56,483 bases of DNA, taken from Bacteroidota bacterium. Lineage in GTDB: Bacteria; Bacteroidota; Ignavibacteria; Ignavibacteriales; Melioribacteraceae. Where the stretch lies: positions 1 through 56,483 of the forward strand of contig JAHISP010000015.1 in the NCBI GenBank assembly GCA_018818165.1. The letters run 5' to 3'. A model generated the notes under the pieces. That model worked only from the letters and a program-made list of their open reading frames with translations, made no database searches and was not told where the DNA came from. The translations under genes and the position numbers were made by a program. Each line of letters begins with the position of its first letter. The stretch's first letter is position 1. Positions 10,977 through 18,071 of the stretch are shown piece after piece.

Positions 10977-11071
10977 TATCTTCTCCATTTACTTTAAAAA
11001 TCTAATTGCAAAAAATACGGAATAATTAAAAATATTGCTAAATATCTTTATGATGTAAAACAGTTTAAAGT

Positions 11072-11128
11072 CACTCCAGTAGTAATTAAAATTGATTTCA
11101 AAAATTAAATACAAACTAAACTGGAGTG
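11072..11128. promoter_or_regulatory. Inverted repeat in the divergent promoter region
   Basis: The two 9-mers CACTCCAGT (11072-11080) and ACTGGAGTG (11120-11128) are perfect inverted copies, 39 bases apart. They lie between the divergent aconitase and UDP-glucose dehydrogenase genes. This could be a two-site operator or a long-loop hairpin. There is no U-tract to support termination. Confidence 0.35.
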
Positions 11129-11255
11129 CAAAAATTAATCTAACGTGGATTAAAATTCGTTTTTTGCATTTATTATTCTATTTTTGTATTTGGTGTTTTG
11201 CATCTGTAAACAACATGAAAATGTTCTTTTAAGAGGAATAGTTAATTTTAATAAA

Positions 11256-12632
11256 ATGAGGATTACTAAATTGAATTTCGAAAAAAAAATAGTATGTATC
11301 GGAGCAGGTTATGTTGGCGGACCAACAATGACGGTTATTGCAGACAAATGTCCACAATATAAAGTAACAATTGTTGATATTAACGAAGAAAAAATTGCTG
11401 CTTGGAAAACTGACGATTTGCCAATTTATGAGCCAGGATTGCTGGAAGTTGTAAAACGAACTCGCGATAAAAACCTATTTTTTTCAATTGATATTCCAAA
11501 AGAAATAAATGAAGCTGATATTATTTTTGTATCAGTGAACACGCCAACCAAGACTTTTGGTGAAGGAAAAGGCAAAGCTTCCGATTTGCAATATCTCGAA
11601 AAAACTGCTCATGCAATAGTTGCTGCATCAGATTCATCAAAAATTATAGTTGAAAAAAGCACACTTCCAGTTCGCACTGCAGAAGCATTAGAAAAAATAT
11701 TAAATAGCAATGCAAAAGGCATTCGATTTGACGTGGTTTCCAATCCAGAATTTTTAGCTGAAGGAACCGCAATTCGTGATTTGGAAAATCCAGACAGAGT
11801 TTTAATTGGCTCGCGAGAAACAGAAAGTGGATTAAAAGCACGCCAAACATTAGTTGACGTATACAAAAATTGGGTTCCAGATGAAAGAATAATGAGAAGC
11901 AATGTTTGGAGTTCTGAGCTTTCCAAACTTGTAGCAAACGCGTTTCTTGCTCAAAGAATTTCATCAATCAACTCAATTTCGGCTTTGTGCGAAAAAACTG
12001 GAGCGGATGTAAAAGAAATTAGCCGTGCAATTGGAGCTGATTCCAGAATAGGGAATAAATTTTTAAATGCTTCAATTGGATTTGGTGGCTCGTGTTTCAA
12101 AAAGGATATTCTAAATCTTGTTTACATTTCAGAATCGCTTGGATTAATCGAAGTGGCAGAATATTGGGAAAATGTTATTAAAATAAACGATTATCAAGAG
12201 AAACGCTTTGTAAAAAGAATGTTGGAAACAATGTTTAATACTCTTGCTAATAAAAAAATTGTTCTTTTTGGATTTGCATTTAAAGCAGATACTGGCGATA
12301 CACGCGAAACACCAGCATATTACGTTGCAAAAATGTTGTTGGAAGAACACGCAAATGTATTTATAACTGACCCCAAAGCATTAAAAAATGCGAAGATTGA
12401 TTTAGCAGAATATGGTGACAGAATTCAATATGTTGAAGATCCATACGAAGCCGCAAAAGATGCTGACGCAATTGCAATAATGACAGAATGGAACTTGTAC
12501 AAAGAATTGGATTACAAAAAAATATACGAAAGCATGAGAAAACCAGCTCATTTATATGATGGAAGAAGTATTCTAAATCAAGCTGAAATTAAAGAAATTG
12601 GATTTGATACACATACTATTGGAAAACAATAA
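11256..12632 (+). CDS. UDP-glucose 6-dehydrogenase (animal-type)
   Basis: This enzyme oxidises UDP-glucose (or a related UDP-hexose) to the uronic acid with two NAD+. About 458 residues carry the Rossmann motif 'CIGAGYVGGPTM' (residues 14-25), 'VSVNTPTK', 'EKSTLPVRTAE', 'NPEFLAEGTAI' and the catalytic Cys in 'FGGSCFKKD'. The GAGYVGGPT form is that of the animal/Bacteroidetes branch. The start at 11256 is preferred. An in-frame TTG at 11271 with GAGG nine bases upstream is an alternative, and the longer frame from 11184 is unlikely. It begins a locus for an acetamido-uronic sugar, so a UDP-GlcNAc substrate cannot be excluded. Confidence 0.92.
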   Translation: MRITKLNFEKKIVCIGAGYVGGPTMTVIADKCPQYKVTIVDINEEKIAAWKTDDLPIYEPGLLEVVKRTRDKNLFFSIDIPKEINEADIIFVSVNTPTKTFGEGKGKASDLQYLEKTAHAIVAASDSSKIIVEKSTLPVRTAEALEKILNSNAKGIRFDVVSNPEFLAEGTAIRDLENPDRVLIGSRETESGLKARQTLVDVYKNWVPDERIMRSNVWSSELSKLVANAFLAQRISSINSISALCEKTGADVKEISRAIGADSRIGNKFLNASIGFGGSCFKKDILNLVYISESLGLIEVAEYWENVIKINDYQEKRFVKRMLETMFNTLANKKIVLFGFAFKADTGDTRETPAYYVAKMLLEEHANVFITDPKALKNAKIDLAEYGDRIQYVEDPYEAAKDADAIAIMTEWNLYKELDYKKIYESMRKPAHLYDGRSILNQAEIKEIGFDTHTIGKQ

Positions 12633-12734
12633 TAAAAAGCGATAATTTTTCCAGTAAAATAATCTTCATGGGTATAACCAAATAAGCAAAATATTATATG
12701 TTGAAAACTTATGTTAGGTTCTGGATTTTGTTTG

Positions 12735-12755
12735 AAAACCTTGAAGGTTTTATTT
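12735..12755 (+). terminator. Weak hairpin after the UDP-glucose dehydrogenase gene
   Basis: AAAACC (12735-12740) and GGTTTT (12746-12751) form a 6-bp stem with a 5-nt loop, followed by ATTTT. It is short and AT-rich, so it may not terminate efficiently. Confidence 0.35.
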
Positions 12756-12847
12756 TCGAAAACAATTATTGTGTATTACAGAATATAAAAATTAAACAAA
12801 TATACTTATAAATAATACAGATTAACTCTGTAAACAATGAGGAAAAA

Positions 12848-14011
12848 ATGAACGTACAATTGTTAGACTTAAAAGCACAATATCAATCGCTAAAAAGCGA
12901 ATTGGATGCGGCATTGCTAAAAACCGCTGAATCACAATATTTTATAATGGGTCCAGAAGTAACCAAACTTGAGGATGAAATTTCGGAATATCTTGGTGCA
13001 AATCATTCTGTTGGAGTTTCATCGGGGACAGATGCGCTACTTCTTGCGTTAATGGCTTTGGATATAAAAGCTGGTGATGAAGTAATAGTCCCTACATATT
13101 CGTTTTTTGCAACCGCTGGAGTAGTTTCTCGCTTAAATGCAATTCCCGTTTTTGTTGATAGCGACCCAGTGACTTTTAACATTGATCCAACACAAATTGA
13201 AGCAAAAATTACAGACAAAACAAAAGCTATAATTCCTGTTCACTTATATGGACAAAGTGCGGACATGGATGCAATAATGGAAATTGCTAAAAAGCACAAT
13301 CTAAAAGTAGTTGAAGATGGCGCTCAAGCAATTTCCGCACAATATAAAGATGGAAAATGTGTTGGCACAATTGGCGATATTGGATGTTATTCGTTTTTCC
13401 CAAGTAAAAATCTTGGTTGCTTTGGTGATGGCGGAATGACAGTAACAATGGATGCGGATTTAGCTGAATTGCTAAAAGTAAAAAGAGTCCATGGTGGAAA
13501 GCCAAAATATTATCACAGCATGATTGGTGGCAACTTCCGTTTGGACGCAATTCAAGCTGGAGTTTTAAGTGTAAAATTGCCACACTTAGATAGCTGGTCA
13601 CAAGCAAGAAGAGATAATGCAACTCTTTATACAAAATTGTTTGTTGAAGCTGGATTAGCCGAAGAAGAAGGCAAAATATCTTTAGATGAAAATAATAAAG
13701 TTTTGCTTCCAAAAGCTGTTTACAAAGAAACTGGGCATAAAAATTATCACATTTATAACCAATATGTGATTAGAGTTGAAAAACGAGACGAACTAATTGC
13801 TCATTTGCGTTCAGCAAATATTGGATGTGAAATTTACTATCCAGTACCATTTCATAAACAAGAATGCTTCAAAGATTTGCCAAGTTCAAAGGATGAATAT
13901 CCAAATGCAGATTATGCAGCAGAGCATTCAATTGCACTTCCAATTTATCCAGAATTGACAAAAGAGCAAATTGAATATGTGGTAAATACAATAAAAGCGT
14001 TTATGGAATAG
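12848..14011 (+). CDS. DegT/DnrJ/EryC1/StrS sugar aminotransferase (WbpE-like)
   Basis: This fold-type I PLP enzyme adds an amino group to a nucleotide-linked keto sugar. Its 387 residues show the N-terminal 'QLLDLKAQYQSLKSEL', substrate loop 'GVSSGTDALLLAL', 'VEDGAQAISAQY', PLP lysine Lys187 in 'SFFPSKNLGCFGDGG', and 'HSIALPIYPELTKEQI' near the C-terminus. A GAGG ribosome site sits just before the ATG. With the Gfo/Idh oxidoreductase and hexapeptide acyltransferase downstream, this is the WbpE step of the UDP-2,3-diacetamido-2,3-dideoxyglucuronate pathway known from Pseudomonas aeruginosa O5. The pathway assignment is an inference from context. Confidence 0.88.
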   Translation: MNVQLLDLKAQYQSLKSELDAALLKTAESQYFIMGPEVTKLEDEISEYLGANHSVGVSSGTDALLLALMALDIKAGDEVIVPTYSFFATAGVVSRLNAIPVFVDSDPVTFNIDPTQIEAKITDKTKAIIPVHLYGQSADMDAIMEIAKKHNLKVVEDGAQAISAQYKDGKCVGTIGDIGCYSFFPSKNLGCFGDGGMTVTMDADLAELLKVKRVHGGKPKYYHSMIGGNFRLDAIQAGVLSVKLPHLDSWSQARRDNATLYTKLFVEAGLAEEEGKISLDENNKVLLPKAVYKETGHKNYHIYNQYVIRVEKRDELIAHLRSANIGCEIYYPVPFHKQECFKDLPSSKDEYPNADYAAEHSIALPIYPELTKEQIEYVVNTIKAFME

Positions 14012-14017
14012 AACAAA

Positions 14018-14591
14018 AAAGGAAGGCTGGAATGTTGGAATGTTGGAATGATGGAATAAAAGATGGAATATTGGAAAAAACGTGAGCTTGAACATTAATT
14101 AACAATTTGGAGTTTTGGAATTGTGGAAATAAAAAGAAAAAACATAAACAGAGGTTACACTAAGCTTAGAGTTTGGGAAGATTCGGTCTTACTTTTTAAA
14201 TTGGTTTATAAAACAAACAAAAATTTTCCCTATGAATTATCCAAAAGCAGAAACAACATTCTTGATGCCGCACATAGTATTTCAAGAAATATAGCCGAGG
14301 GGTATTGTAGAAAGAACCTTAAGGAATATCTTAACTTTCTTAATATTGCACTTGGCTCTTGTGGCGAATTGTTATCTGGAATTATTTCATTCAAAGCTAT
14401 TGAACAAATTGATGAAATCAATTTTGAAATATTAGATGAGTTACATTTTAAAGTTGAAAATGAATTATTGGGTTTGATAAAATCACTTCAAAAAAAGCAA
14501 AATGATGGTGATTGGGAGGATAAATTTTAATGAAAAATTATCCACGTATAGCAACAAACTTTATTCCATCTTTCCATTTTTCCAATATTCC
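14018..14591 (+). mobile_element. IVS-like element 1: inverted TTCCA-rich repeats around a 4-helix-bundle gene
   Basis: On the left (14018-14079), TGGAA units recur every 7-10 bases. On the right (14561-14591), the complementary TTCCA units recur. A 15-bp perfect inverted pair, GGAATATTGGAAAAA (14065-14079) and TTTTTCCAATATTCC (14577-14591), closes the element, with the 4-helix-bundle gene between. This is the layout of the intervening sequences (IVS) found in some 23S rRNA genes, but here it lies between two sugar-pathway genes. Confidence 0.55.
14123..14530 (+). CDS. Four-helix-bundle protein (23S rRNA IVS / S23 type), copy 1
   Basis: This 135-residue, all-helical protein belongs to the four-helix-bundle family encoded in 23S rRNA intervening sequences (TIGR02436-type). 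Family features visible are 'LRVWEDSVLLFKLVYKTNKNFP' in helix 1, 'SISRNIAEGY' in helix 2, and 'FLNIALGSCGEL' in helix 3. It begins with GTG at 14123; the paralogue at 15980 starts with ATG at the equivalent codon. I count 114 of 135 identical residues (84%) with that copy. Function is unknown; these proteins form pentamers and often lie in polysaccharide loci. TTCCA-rich inverted repeats flank it, and it separates two genes of one pathway. Confidence 0.88.
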   Translation: MEIKRKNINRGYTKLRVWEDSVLLFKLVYKTNKNFPYELSKSRNNILDAAHSISRNIAEGYCRKNLKEYLNFLNIALGSCGELLSGIISFKAIEQIDEINFEILDELHFKVENELLGLIKSLQKKQNDGDWEDKF

Positions 14592-14627
14592 CTTTAATAT
14601 TAATCAGTAATAAATAATGAGAAAATA

Positions 14628-15614
14628 GTGTTAAAAACAGAAAATATTAAATTAGCCATAATCGGTGCTGGACGCTGGGGCATGAATCATGTAAAAACTG
14701 CAGCTTCGCTTCTTCCACACGAAAATATTGTTGTGTTTGATTCAAATCCAGAAACAGAGCAAAAAATCAGACAAATATCAGATAAAATCCAATATTCCAG
14801 TCTTCCATTTTTCCAACATTCCAATGTGGATGATTTTAATGCTGTAATAATAGCCACACCAGCAGAAACTCACTTTGAAATTGCAAAAAAATGTATGCTT
14901 GCTGGAAAAAATGTTTTGGTAGAAAAACCAATTACACTAGTTCCCGAAGAAGCCGAAGAACTCCTTAACCTTTCCCTTAGTCTTAACCTTAAGTTAATGG
15001 TTGGACATGTTTTGCTTTTTCATCCAGCAGTTTTAAGAATTAAAGATGGAATTGAAAAAGATGAGATTGGAACTCTTCAATATATTTATAGTAACAGATT
15101 AAATCTTGGTGCAATAAGAAGTGAAGAAAATGCATTGTGGTCATTTGCTCCGCACGATATTTCGGTAATTCAATATTTGGTTGGAGATAATCCAATAGAA
15201 GTACAAGCAAATGGTGGAGCTTTTGTCCAAGAAGGAATTGAGGATTCAACACTAACATTTTTGTCATATCCAAATAATGTAAAGGCGCATATTTTTGTGA
15301 GTTGGTTACATCCCTTTAAAGAACAACGAATGGTTATAATTGGCGATAAAGGAATGTATGTATTTGAAGATTCATTAAAAACCGAAAAGTTAAAATTCTA
15401 CAAAAAAGGTTTCAAAGAAGTTGATGGAGTGATAGAAAAATTTGATGCTGATTATGAAGTAATCAATTTTGAAGAAACAATGCCATTAGCCGAAGAACAA
15501 AAGCATTTTTACTTATCAATACTAAATAACACAACTCCAAGAACCGATGGCAAACACGCGCTTGAAGTGCTGGAAATATTGGATAAAGCAACGAAGAAGT
15601 TAAAAGCGGAATGA
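14628..15614 (+). CDS. Gfo/Idh/MocA sugar oxidoreductase (WbpB-like)
   Basis: This NAD-dependent oxidoreductase would act on a nucleotide sugar, oxidising the 3-hydroxyl before transamination. In its ~328 residues I see the Rossmann start 'LAIIGAGRWGMNH', 'VIIATPAETHF', the conserved 'VLVEKPITLVPEEAEEL' with the catalytic-site Lys-Pro, 'MVGHVLLFHPAV', and 'PHDISVIQYL' in the C-terminal domain. The start codon is GTG at 14628. Bases 14791-14820 within the gene closely match the TTCCA-type intergenic repeat (26 of 30 with 14562-14591). They encode YSSLPFFQHSNV, where relatives usually have an ordinary helix of the same length. It is part of the sugar locus together with the genes at 11256, 12848 and 16454. 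Confidence 0.88.
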   Translation: MLKTENIKLAIIGAGRWGMNHVKTAASLLPHENIVVFDSNPETEQKIRQISDKIQYSSLPFFQHSNVDDFNAVIIATPAETHFEIAKKCMLAGKNVLVEKPITLVPEEAEELLNLSLSLNLKLMVGHVLLFHPAVLRIKDGIEKDEIGTLQYIYSNRLNLGAIRSEENALWSFAPHDISVIQYLVGDNPIEVQANGGAFVQEGIEDSTLTFLSYPNNVKAHIFVSWLHPFKEQRMVIIGDKGMYVFEDSLKTEKLKFYKKGFKEVDGVIEKFDADYEVINFEETMPLAEEQKHFYLSILNNTTPRTDGKHALEVLEILDKATKKLKAE

Positions 15615-15711
15615 TGGAATAAAAGATGGAATGATGGAAAGTTGGAAAGGAAACGGAATTTTGGAATAATGGAAAGATGTGCCAAAGGTCTGTGAGACTC
15701 CCTTGTACCAT

Positions 15712-15907
15712 AGCAATGCTGTCAACTTAAGAACAAAAGTCAATTTGTGTGTTCTAAATGTGGCTAAAGCCATTTTTTCTCTATTTGTTTTTATCCAGTC
15801 GCTTAAAAGCGACGGTAAAATCCGTTTACTTTAGTAAACGGATTTTAGAAAAATAAAAATTATAATGGCTTTAGCCACATTTGGATCATTAAGTTGACAG
15901 CATTGCT
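15712..15907. repeat. 196-bp nested palindrome (MITE-like)
   Basis: Four hairpin levels lie inside one another or side by side. The outer arms of 19 nt (15712-15730 / 15889-15907, AGCAATGCTGTCAACTTAA) are perfect. The second arms of 19 nt (15756-15774 / 15864-15882, AAATGTGGCTAAAGCCATT) are perfect. Inside are a 7-bp hairpin GTCGCTT/AAGCGAC (15798-15813) and a 14-bp hairpin AAAATCCGTTTACT/AGTAAACGGATTTT (15817-15846). There is no coding capacity. A non-autonomous transposable element or a structured RNA are both possible. Confidence 0.7.
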
Positions 15908-15979
15908 TCGGGGGAGCATCCCCTTGTGAGAATGTTGGGATTGATAAAACTAACAGTAATTGTATTGGAGGATTGATTA

Positions 15980-16387
15980 ATGGAATTAAAAAGGAAAAAT
16001 GTGAATAGAGGATTTACTAAACTTCGCGTTTGGGTAGATGCTATTTCTCTTTTCAAGTTAGTTTATAAAACAAATAAAAATTTTCCCTATGAGGTTTCCA
16101 AAAGTCGAAATAATATTCTTGATGCAGCTCATAGCATTTCTAGAAATATTGCTGAAGGATATTGCAGAAAAAATATAAAAGAGTTTCTTAATTTTCTAAA
16201 CATTGCACTAGGTTCTTGCGGTGAATTATTTTCGGGGATAATTTCATTCAAAGAAATTGAATTAATTAGCGAATATGACTTCGAAATTTTAGATGAACTG
16301 CATTACAAAGTAGAGAATGAATTAATTAGTTTGATAAAATCATTACAAATAAAACAAAACGAAGGTGACTGGGAAGATAAGTTTTAA
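15980..16387 (+). CDS. Four-helix-bundle protein (23S rRNA IVS / S23 type), copy 2
   Basis: This is a paralogue of the protein at 14123, also 135 residues, with about 21 substitutions. Most are conservative and they cluster in helix 1 (residues 19-23) and the helix 3-4 linker (residues 92-100). The conserved core 'SRNNILDAAHSISRNIAEGYCRKN' region (residues 42-65) is identical. The start is ATG with a GGAGGATTG ribosome-site-like stretch upstream. It lies between the oxidoreductase and acyltransferase genes of the sugar locus, so the two copies alternate with pathway genes. The strong protein conservation, with nucleotide differences spread over synonymous sites, suggests both copies are under selection. 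Confidence 0.88.
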   Translation: MELKRKNVNRGFTKLRVWVDAISLFKLVYKTNKNFPYEVSKSRNNILDAAHSISRNIAEGYCRKNIKEFLNFLNIALGSCGELFSGIISFKEIELISEYDFEILDELHYKVENELISLIKSLQIKQNEGDWEDKF

Positions 16388-16453
16388 GTTTGTGGAAGTA
16401 ACTATTCCATCATTCCATTTTTCCACCATTCCCTTAGACGAAAGGAGAAATTT

Positions 16454-17041
16454 ATGAGCGACAAAAATTATTACGTAAACCCCCACGCTGTAGTTGACGA
16501 TGGCGTTGAACTTGGCGAAGGTACAAAAGTATGGCATTTTTCACATGTGCAATCTGGTTCAAAGATTGGGAAAAAGTGTGTAATTGGTCAAAATGTAAAT
16601 GTTGGAAACAATGTTACAATAGGTAATTTTGTTAAAATCCAAAACAACGTTTCTGTTTACGAAGGTGTAACTTTAGAGGATTATGTATTCTGCGGACCAT
16701 CTATGGTTTTTACAAATATCCTAAATCCACGAAGTAAATATCCACAAGTTGGAGCAGAATTTTATATTAATACTCTTGTTAAAGAAGGTGCGTCACTTGG
16801 TGCAAATTCAACAATTGTTTGCGGACATACAATAGGACGTTTTGCAATGGTTGGCGCTGGTTCGGTTGTTACAAAAGATGTTCCAGATTTTGCGCTTGTT
16901 GTCGGAAATCCAGCAAAAGTTATTGGCTGGTGGTCAGAAGCTGGCGAAAAATTAAACTTTGATGAAAATGGTTTAGCTACTTGCTCAAGAACTGGAATTA
17001 AATACAAACTCGAAAATGGAAAAGTTGCTGAAGTAAAATAG
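16454..17041 (+). CDS. Hexapeptide-repeat acyltransferase (WbpD-like)
   Basis: This 195-residue left-handed beta-helix acyltransferase would N-acetylate the amino sugar made by the upstream aminotransferase. Hexapeptide turns run from about residue 18 to 150: '[20 protein letters not shown]', '[20 protein letters not shown]', then a loop '[17 protein letters not shown]', then '[20 protein letters not shown]'. The loop with HPRS/NPRS-type residues is standard in WbpD/WlbB enzymes. The C-terminal tail ([21 protein letters not shown]) also occurs in that group. A strong AAAGGAG site lies 7 bases before the ATG. It would be the last step of the pathway. Confidence 0.9.
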
Positions 17042-17183
17042 TATTTTTCCAATTATATTATTTTTGCGCAAATGGTGCACAATCAAAATTAATTTGTGCA
17101 TCATTTTATTTTAGGAAAGTGTGGTATTGGTTGAAGAATTTAATAATCAGCACATATAATTTTATCCATAATTTGGAATTATA

Positions 17184-17495
17184 ATGGGTGGAATTGTTTA
17201 TTGGGGATTGTTAAGAACGGCTGTGGTAATTGTTTTGTTATGGCTTTCTTACGATTATATTAAATCACAATATTTTTGGATTATTTTTGCAATAGCAATT
17301 TATGTTGTGTTGATTCATCCAATAGTTTCTCAGTATAAGGAGTTTGTTATGAAAAACAGAAATGTAATTAACAACTCCCTTTGCTCAAAATGCCAACACT
17401 TTAACGAAACTGCGGTTCTTTGCATGAAGTATGACGAACATCCAACCGATGATTTTACTCCATGCGACGGTTTAGATTGGGAAGCAAAAAACTGA
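17184..17495 (+). CDS. Small membrane protein with a four-cysteine tail
   Basis: I do not recognise a named family. The 103 residues start with two hydrophobic helices (about 5-22 and 29-49: 'AVVIVLLWLSYDYI', 'FWIIFAIAIYVVLI'). A soluble tail follows with spaced cysteines, 'CSKCQHFNETAVLCMKYDEHPTDDFTPCDG'-type; four Cys at residues 67, 70, 81 and 94. The Cys-x2-Cys...Cys...Cys pattern could bind a metal ion. It stands alone, 142 bases after the acyltransferase gene. The preceding TATTTTTG at about 17055 resembles a Bacteroidetes -7 box, but no good -33 box is visible. Confidence 0.65.
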   Translation: MGGIVYWGLLRTAVVIVLLWLSYDYIKSQYFWIIFAIAIYVVLIHPIVSQYKEFVMKNRNVINNSLCSKCQHFNETAVLCMKYDEHPTDDFTPCDGLDWEAKN

Positions 17496-17566
17496 AATTT
17501 TTAAGCCGTCATTGTGAGGGGTTGTGAGGGGTTGTGTATCAGCAAAAAAACGGTGCGTAAAAAAAG

Positions 17567-17872
17567 TAAAATCCTACGAAGATTTAATGGGCAAGGATAG
17601 AGCCACTAAATGGCTACTCAATTAGAAACTGAGTTGTCAGAACATCTTGGTTATGAAAAGCATTCACCCTCTTGAGATAATACTGGTAATAGTCGTAACG
17701 AAAAACCGATAAAACGATCAAGACAAATGAAGGGAAAATAGAGCTGACAATACCAAGAGATTATAACTCAAGCTTCGAGCCAATAGTGATTCAAATGTAT
17801 GAAAAATCACTTGGTTCAATCGAAGATAAATCATTTCTATGTATGCAAAAGGAGTACAACACGTGATATGCA
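17567..17872 (+). pseudogene. Decayed IS256-family transposase, N-terminal part
   Basis: Conceptual translation across frameshifts gives KSYEDLMGKD, then ELSEHLGYEKHSPS, then NTGNSRN, then IELTIPRDYNSSFEP, then IISMYAKG and TTRDMQ. These are the ordered conserved blocks of IS256-family (Mutator-like) transposases. At least two frameshifts and an in-frame stop (after EKHSPS) break it, and the catalytic DDE region is missing. It also matches the relic at 2953-3018 in inverted orientation. Immediately upstream, 17514-17535 carries a tandem duplication GTGAGGGGTT twice. Confidence 0.75.
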
Positions 17873-18071
17873 AAGTCCCCTTTTTATCTTTTCTATGTTA
17901 AATCTCATTCGACCCAACCCTATTGCTATTTTTTTTAACTTCTCATATATTTTTATAAGATTTGAGAAGGAATTAAAAAAATATTTTTTAAAAATGATAA
18001 TTATTATTGACATGTATCAAAAATATCTTTAACTTTACTATGAGTGTTGTAGAAATACAACAAACAAATCA
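17873..18071. other. AT-rich gene-free stretch
   Basis: This is presumably more of the decayed insertion or its landing site. An open frame at 17799-18032 exists, but its translation is the out-of-frame IS256 relic followed by low-complexity Phe/Ile text, so I do not call it a gene. Confidence 0.4.

Follow-up and report, generated by a model that had tools for sequence, protein, structure and literature searches.

Two IVP genes between inverted repeat arms

A stretch of 56,483 nucleotides (positions 1 to 56,483) of contig JAHISP010000015.1 of a Bacteroidota bacterium (assembly GCA_018818165.1), called the window hereafter, carries two four-helix-bundle genes of the S23/IVP type, known from the intervening sequences (IVSs) of 23S rRNA, within a run of sugar-nucleotide-type genes. 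Each of the two genes, IVP1 and IVP2, lies between a left arm of TGGAA repeats and a right arm of TTCCA repeats (elements 1 and 2), and an earlier note on this DNA, made from the letters alone, had suggested that such units may form a mobile or RNA-based class of elements independent of rRNA. The features in question are the following:

12848..14011, + strand: DegT/DnrJ/EryC1 aminotransferase gene, upstream neighbour (PF01041, E 1e-115)
14025..14128: left arm of element 1, TGGAA array (core 14028-14076, extra units 14109-14128)
14123..14530, + strand: IVP1, four-helix-bundle (S23/IVP) gene, 135 aa (GTG start at the array edge; start codon uncertain)
14560..14592: right arm of element 1, TTCCA array
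14628..15614, + strand: GFO/IDH/MocA oxidoreductase gene, separating elements 1 and 2
about 14791..14823: TTCCA array within the oxidoreductase open reading frame (ORF), with a matching array on contig C93 of the same assembly and in the related genome G002
15606..15676: left arm of element 2, TGGAA array
15688..15930 (ends approximate, about 243 bp): hairpin repeat resembling a miniature inverted-repeat transposable element (MITE), between the left arm of element 2 and IVP2
15980..16387, + strand: IVP2, four-helix-bundle (S23/IVP) gene, 135 aa
16403..16432: right arm of element 2, TTCCA array
16454..17041, + strand: hexapeptide acyltransferase gene, downstream neighbour

Profile searches placed both ORFs in the family 23S_rRNA_IVP (PF05635) with E-values of 6.7e-20 and 2.2e-21, the scores of 71.7 bits for IVP1 and 76.5 bits for IVP2 lying above the curated cut-off of 33.8; TIGR02436 was matched as well (68.5 and 72.6 bits, cut-off 24), and a phmmer search with the IVP2 protein led to 2gsc (E 4.9e-8). 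The two proteins are 84% identical, as the note had said, and the neighbours, which it had called wbpE/wbpB/wbpD homologues, matched aminotransferase, oxidoreductase and hexapeptide transferase profiles; we take them to be WbpE-like, WbpB-like and WbpD-like, respectively. The sequence TTCCANNNTTCCA occurs 15 times in the window, as compared to 0.29 expected and a largest shuffle count of 2, and all 15 occurrences are confined to 14028-16425. Read on the + strand, the left arms are TGGAA and the right arms TTCCA in both elements, arranged in tandem units of 8 nt (about 7-10 nt across elements, judged by eye). Perfect inverted pairs, derived from overlapping 13-mers, join the arms of IVP1 over 15 nt (14065-14079 with 14577-14591) and those of IVP2 twice over 14 nt (15608-15621 with 16403-16416 and 15626-15639 with 16405-16418), in accordance with the 14-15 nt claimed before. 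The description of the TTCCA arrays as flanks of IVP genes holds around both genes and fails for the array inside the oxidoreductase ORF. In the predicted fold of the transcript, a check that had been proposed, the arms are paired in the case of element 1 around the ORF (z -3.16), with a stability above that of all 100 shuffles.

An ORF of the IVP family inside stem-forming terminal inverted repeats is the architecture of rRNA IVSs, as in Coxiella, and the likeness seen in the earlier note is real; the rRNA gene as location is lacking here, the neighbours being sugar-nucleotide-type genes. The present units are therefore not rRNA IVSs, since their defining place differs, yet they share an equal plan. 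Searches of Rfam at gathering score yielded no match, group I and group II introns included, in window positions 11000-18000 and likewise none in eight related loci, and the ORF between the arms is a PF05635 gene and not the Y1 (HUH) transposase gene by which REP/RAYT systems are recognised.

Complementary flanks across IVP loci

Flank complementarity was scored as the best local complementarity of the 300 nt upstream with the 300 nt downstream of an IVP gene, and a locus passed this arm test when its own score lay above all 100 shuffles of its own flanks. After removal of duplicate domains, domains shorter than 90 aa, flanks shorter than 300 nt and runs of N, 152 loci were kept out of 217 profile matches. 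The test was passed by 79 of the 152 loci: 65/120 in the order set, 12/28 in a phylum-wide draw (some of which belong again to the same order) and 2/4 other named loci, namely L079 (Omnitrophota) and L081 (uncultured bacterium), with L080 and L084 failing. Among control genes 1/140 passed, and among genes at most 700 bp from an IVP gene 1/24. With one representative per 50% identity group, 13-16 of 32-37 passed. Moreover, own flanks reached a mean score of 16.6 (n=119), as compared to 9.6 when flanks from different elements were paired and 9.5 after shuffling, and the own downstream flank outscored at least 95% of those of other elements in 69/119 cases. By a softer control, a score above the pooled 99th percentile of shuffles, 68/119 IVP loci and 6/131 control genes were retained, and four of those six control genes adjoin IVP elements by their coordinates. 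The arms in the 79 passing loci have a median length of 29 nt and identity of 88%, the upstream arm being 41 nt away from the start codon and the downstream arm 18 nt away from the stop codon; G exceeds C in the upstream arm in 70, C exceeds G in 6 and both are equal in 3. A chance origin of the arms is ruled out by the TTCCANNNTTCCA shuffles, the comparison of own with foreign flanks, the shuffle test and the controls. The arm layout is common among IVP genes and, by the shuffle test, not universal.

Outside the phylum, nine records of cyanobacterial plasmids with an IVP relative were found, and five of the six genes examined passed the arm test; the passing elements, on Nostoc, Geminocystis and Calothrix plasmids, mostly have plain short arrays as arms, for example of GGGAACA. 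The 79 armed loci together with these plasmids support the earlier claim that the IVP elements are independent of rRNA, and they are widespread.

Arm motifs and their inheritance

PF05635 matches are present in 54/58 related genomes, 22 of which carry the triple TTCCA pattern, and in 157/198 genomes drawn from the phylum. A search with the window protein, which followed the suggestion to look for further armed four-helix-bundle genes, gave 30 loci from 164 genomes of the order, the window's own included. The 18 relatives of at least 50% identity have TGGAA (or TGGAG) arrays before the gene and TTCCA (or CTCCA) arrays after it as judged by eye, and of the 17 of them tested 12 pass and 5 fail the shuffle test; the 11 relatives of about 40% identity have an equal layout, by eye, in which the motif is a different one, for example TGAATGGA or TGGATGGT (of eight tested, 5 pass and 3 fail). 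Further IVP subfamilies each have their own arm motif. TTCCA, by which the earlier note had proposed to look for further such genes, is the motif of one subfamily and was rejected as class-defining; TTCCA counts alone gave no signal around the other IVP subfamilies, whose arms were found by reading the flanks. A scan of wider genome contigs with the window protein returned just six relatives, 33-49% identical, and PADLOC no match up to an E-value of 0.01.

The arm motif tracks the IVP subfamily, with a Mantel r of 0.41 as compared to a maximum of 0.12 in 1000 permutations, and motif likeness is limited to proteins above roughly 50-60% identity; L135 and L136 have unrelated motifs despite 62% protein identity. 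At the junction of nuoC and nuoD, 11 IVP genes from different genomes form one clade (support 0.78) and therefore look like one old, inherited insertion. Along this lineage the arm motif drifts while the arms of each copy continue to match: own pairs score 15.05 and swapped pairs 10.93 (22 of 20000 permutations), and 6/11 copies pass the shuffle test singly. The arms of an element, inverted to one another and built of short degenerate tandem repeats, belong together and change together.

Two observations were made by the way. At about 2680-3380 of L183 (G014:C26) an IVP gene of the TGGAA subfamily is split by a small GIY-YIG-like ORF with short inverted ends (by eye), and near the end of L191 (G003:C42) a GCGAATA heptamer array lies close to a TGGAA array.

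Occupied, empty and gene-less junctions

The check for empty sites which the earlier note had called for was made by reading 13 loci around the oxidoreductase gene, 8 of which have no IVP gene after it. Clean gaps of about 35-40 bp without arms or insert follow the gene in G029 and G031, and about 126 bp without an IVP gene in G018; the gaps of G004 are filled with other sequence that has no TTCCA array, and in G001 and G007 another gene comes next. Gene-less hairpins stand in G017 (TGAATG type) and in G002, where TGGAA/TTCCA hairpins occupy both junctions, the oxidoreductase is the closest in the family (96%) and the genome is without a close copy of the window IVP. Occupied forms include a TGGAA-subfamily IVP gene with a stop codon in G019, IVP genes of the 40% group with another motif in G026 and G159, one recognised by profile in G158, and in G021 an IVP match farther downstream. 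Nine IVP genes precede the transferase gene, and the protein tree puts them at seven places: IVP2 with its duplicate on C93, the sisters G026 and G159, and five alone. IVP2 and its duplicate group most closely with IVP1, which occupies the other junction (support 0.94).

A similar range was found on Nostoc plasmids at the junction of a TraM-domain gene with the next gene: pNe_5 of Nostoc edaphicum and a Nostoc C052 plasmid carry an IVP element, two Nostoc C057 plasmids and pn2 of UHCC 0926 are empty (51-52 bp), pNsp_c of Nostoc ATCC 53789 has arms without a gene and pNsp_b an unrelated insert; a sixth record starts at the junction and is uninformative. Several separate IVP lineages occur at one junction, and empty sites and gene-less forms exist.

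The host genome has seven IVP genes. Its contig C93 (L038, 10.6 kb) bears a second aminotransferase-oxidoreductase-transferase operon, 92-96% identical in DNA over long pieces, which is either an own paralogue or derives from a second strain in the assembly. This operon retains IVP2 and lacks the 243-bp repeat, presenting the empty site of the latter, and its IVP1 is reduced to about the last 40 codons with both arms intact; gene-less forms can therefore be relics. The 243-bp repeat has 38 matches in its own genome, several of which are pieces of one copy.

Another possibility is that the IVP genes are ordinary members of their operons and that the hairpins or simple repeats beside them are common ones, present by coincidence. 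The selection on the protein would be in line with this: the IVP protein is under purifying selection, with a median dN/dS (ratio of nonsynonymous to synonymous substitution rates) of 0.12 in the 70 pairs that could be used out of 145, dS being saturated in many of them, with values of 0.04-0.25 in the 30 pairs with dS below 1.5, and with 0.11 between IVP2 and its copy on C93, and the long inheritance at nuoC and nuoD also fits a host gene. Such an origin is rejected by the near absence of such arms from control genes and by the empty junctions, and we regard it as very improbable. The note had named as telling against its proposal that related genomes always carry the genes in the same operon without repeats or empty sites; related genomes instead show clean empty junctions, arms without the gene and other IVP subfamilies at the same junction, and the Nostoc plasmids show full, empty and gene-less states.

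More weight is due to the possibility that the arrays form a dispersed family of repeats or hairpins in their own right, into which IVP genes insert or with which they hitch-hike, so that the arms would serve as a target without belonging to the element. In the host genome 31 matches of the triple TTCCA pattern were found, as compared to 2 of the reversed pattern, and arrays without a nearby IVP gene stand on eight contigs (C1, C16, C22, C35, C43, C59, C73 and C88) as well as in G002, whose gene-less hairpins at both junctions are also in line with this explanation. Genes of another family, PF13366 (GxxExxY, PD-(D/E)XK; L253-L282, 26 of 30 loci usable), are armed too, in 18/26 cases. Contrarily, the arm motif follows the IVP subfamily, the arms of the inherited nuoC and nuoD copies change in concert, the C93 deletion remnant keeps both arms, and the empty sites of G029, G031 and the C057 plasmids are clean and armless. 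On balance, we consider arms that are independent of the gene unlikely.

As to the solo arrays themselves, some adjoin arrays of other motifs, and those at L039 2931-3190 and L040 4868-5420 are mosaics in which TTCCA, TGTCTCATATC-like and CTTCTCA-like repeats stand side by side.

Sense placement and the pairing of the arms

Orientation was scored for those 90 of the 152 loci in which 900 nt of flank with an ORF of 100 codons or more were available on either side. Both neighbours are co-directional with the IVP gene in 84/90 and both opposed in 0/90, as compared to 74/105 and 6/105, respectively, for control genes (p 4e-5 for IVP versus controls). For PF13366 genes the counts were 23/25 and 0/25, and for GIY-YIG genes 9/17 and 5/17.

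Sense placement would be expected if the element acted as an RNA-level IVS, with arms that pair in the operon mRNA, cleavage by RNase III, processing of the IVP loop and selection on the stem. The arms are paired around the ORF in the predicted folds not only of element 1 of the window but also of a Nostoc plasmid element (z -5.52, stabler than all 100 shuffles), and rRNA IVSs are cut by RNase III (PMC4990558). The mismatches between the arms of the 79 passing elements speak otherwise: a sense transcript would tolerate just G-U, and G-U and A-C were found 129 and 123 times, respectively (p 0.75), which gives no sign of selection on an RNA stem; furthermore, inserts between cistrons require no excision. 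Processing of this kind is thus rather improbable in our view, and of the earlier term "RNA-based" the predicted stems and the sense placement stand, the pairing test having turned out negative. Since G-U is not commoner than A-C, the sense placement may merely reflect a need for read-through expression, and the same counts favour DNA copying between the arms as the means by which their matching is kept up.

Proposed IVS-like elements in operons

The architecture, the sense placement, the gene-less forms and the scattered presence together point to IVS-like elements living in operons. We therefore propose, with a probability of about 0.62, that left arm, IVP gene and right arm constitute a free-standing one-gene IVS-like element that resides in sense between the genes of operons. 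Several results weigh against this proposal. The arm test was failed by 73/152 IVP loci, and the sample consists mostly of best-scoring matches. IVP2 itself fails (10.0, shuffle maximum 13.5), because the insert of about 243 bp pushes its left arm beyond 300 nt, and its insert-free copy on C93 passes (16.5 versus 13.0), as does IVP1 (19.5 versus 14.0). In the TGGAA subfamily, a permutation set of 21 members with one from outside the order, the own-arm advantage is small (16.24 versus 14.78 across elements; 378 of 20000). PF13366 genes, of a family other than IVP, pass the arm test too, and GIY-YIG genes pass it in 7/19 cases (19 of 30 loci usable), several with terminator-like hairpins; the arm test is therefore not specific to the IVP element class, and the GIY-YIG genes are taken here as another kind of thing. 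The mismatch counts given above show no selection for RNA pairing. Apart from the IVP gene, the arms in the window enclose no complete ORF of at least 70 aa, searches with the window protein found no IVP relatives in phages or viral contigs, and at the Nostoc junction, where the element replaces part of the spacer, a target-site duplication is not visible, although such duplications were not searched for systematically. Of the mobility suggested in the earlier note the evolutionary sense alone is retained.

Tandem GIY-YIG genes with equal scores and fixed spacings of 450, 315 and 317 bp were met at G046:C1:120132-122135, G048:C1:2945594-2947066 and G035:C1:1733881-1734727, respectively.

For the free-standing element we propose that the IVP gene would be expressed by read-through of the host operon and that its protein may act on the arms of its own element. 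New intercistronic sites would be reached occasionally, perhaps by host recombination or by an enzyme in trans, and would be followed by long inheritance and by decay through gene loss. Matching of the arms would be renewed at the DNA level, by hairpin template switching that copies one arm from the other, rather than by selection on an RNA stem; the RNA stem is a possible functional form, and the moving form might be either RNA or DNA.

A wider extension is offered tentatively, with somewhat more doubt than belief: IVP or PF13366 nuclease genes between diversifying, mutually copied arms, in sense within operons of chromosomes and plasmids of several phyla, might form one large class which would be the source of a large part of the so far unexplained dispersed heptamer and octamer repeats, such as the short tandemly repeated repetitive (STRR) sequences of cyanobacteria and the TTCCA arrays, with rRNA IVSs as a special case.

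Relation to known systems and significance

REP/REPIN sequences with their RAYT gene likewise combine one gene flanked by inverted repeats with dispersed solo copies. The IVP unit differs in having no Y1 transposase, and its arms are diversifying arrays instead of a fixed palindrome. Diversity-generating retroelements encode Avd, a protein of a related family (PMC10053308); no reverse transcriptase lies between the IVP arms, although no search aimed at reverse transcriptases was made.

The closest likeness is to the 23S rRNA IVSs, for example of Coxiella and Leptospira, which share the PF05635-type ORF in terminal inverted repeats and the scattered presence; in Coxiella the terminal stem of the IVS measures 28 bp, and tandem heptamers precede the ORF (PMC4990558). 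The present units differ from these in lying between protein genes, in a motif of their own for each element, in longer arrays, in gene-less forms and in having no need of excision. According to the same source, the Xanthomonas relative is a pentamer, the family is without known function, and since 1990 it has been unclear where rRNA IVSs come from and what they do (PMC4990558). IVP ORFs also lie inside rRNA insertions of the candidate phyla radiation (CPR), for which ORF-less versions are described at some of the same sites, said there of LAGLIDADG-ORF sites; these insertions are in rRNA only, and the terms "inverted repeat" and "four helix" are absent from the text (PMC11270868). IVP genes between unrelated genes were noted earlier, for example between cmr3 and cmr2 of Pleurocapsa, in a passage that does not mention arms (PMC3936711), and searches of one open-access library brought up no account of arms around free-standing IVP genes. 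Cyanobacterial STRR heptamers (PMC2670836) and TAACTGA arrays (PMC4679880) share with the arms the intergenic 7-nt tandem arrangement, some hairpins and the lack of an assigned function; the passages on them do not link them to IVP genes, whereas here such arrays are the paired arms of plasmid IVP genes, from which we infer that cyanobacterial IVP arms and STRR repeats are the same thing.

Should the free-standing genes belong to one kind of element with the rRNA cases, rRNA IVSs would become a minority of a much larger class, the arms could be named as the likely partner of the IVP protein, and the long-standing problem of STRR-like arrays would gain a testable source. Arms that drift and yet stay complementary would moreover be a natural setting in which hairpin template switching can be tested. 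Armed IVP elements may in this way explain an uncharacterised protein family together with some of the unexplained repeats of bacteria.

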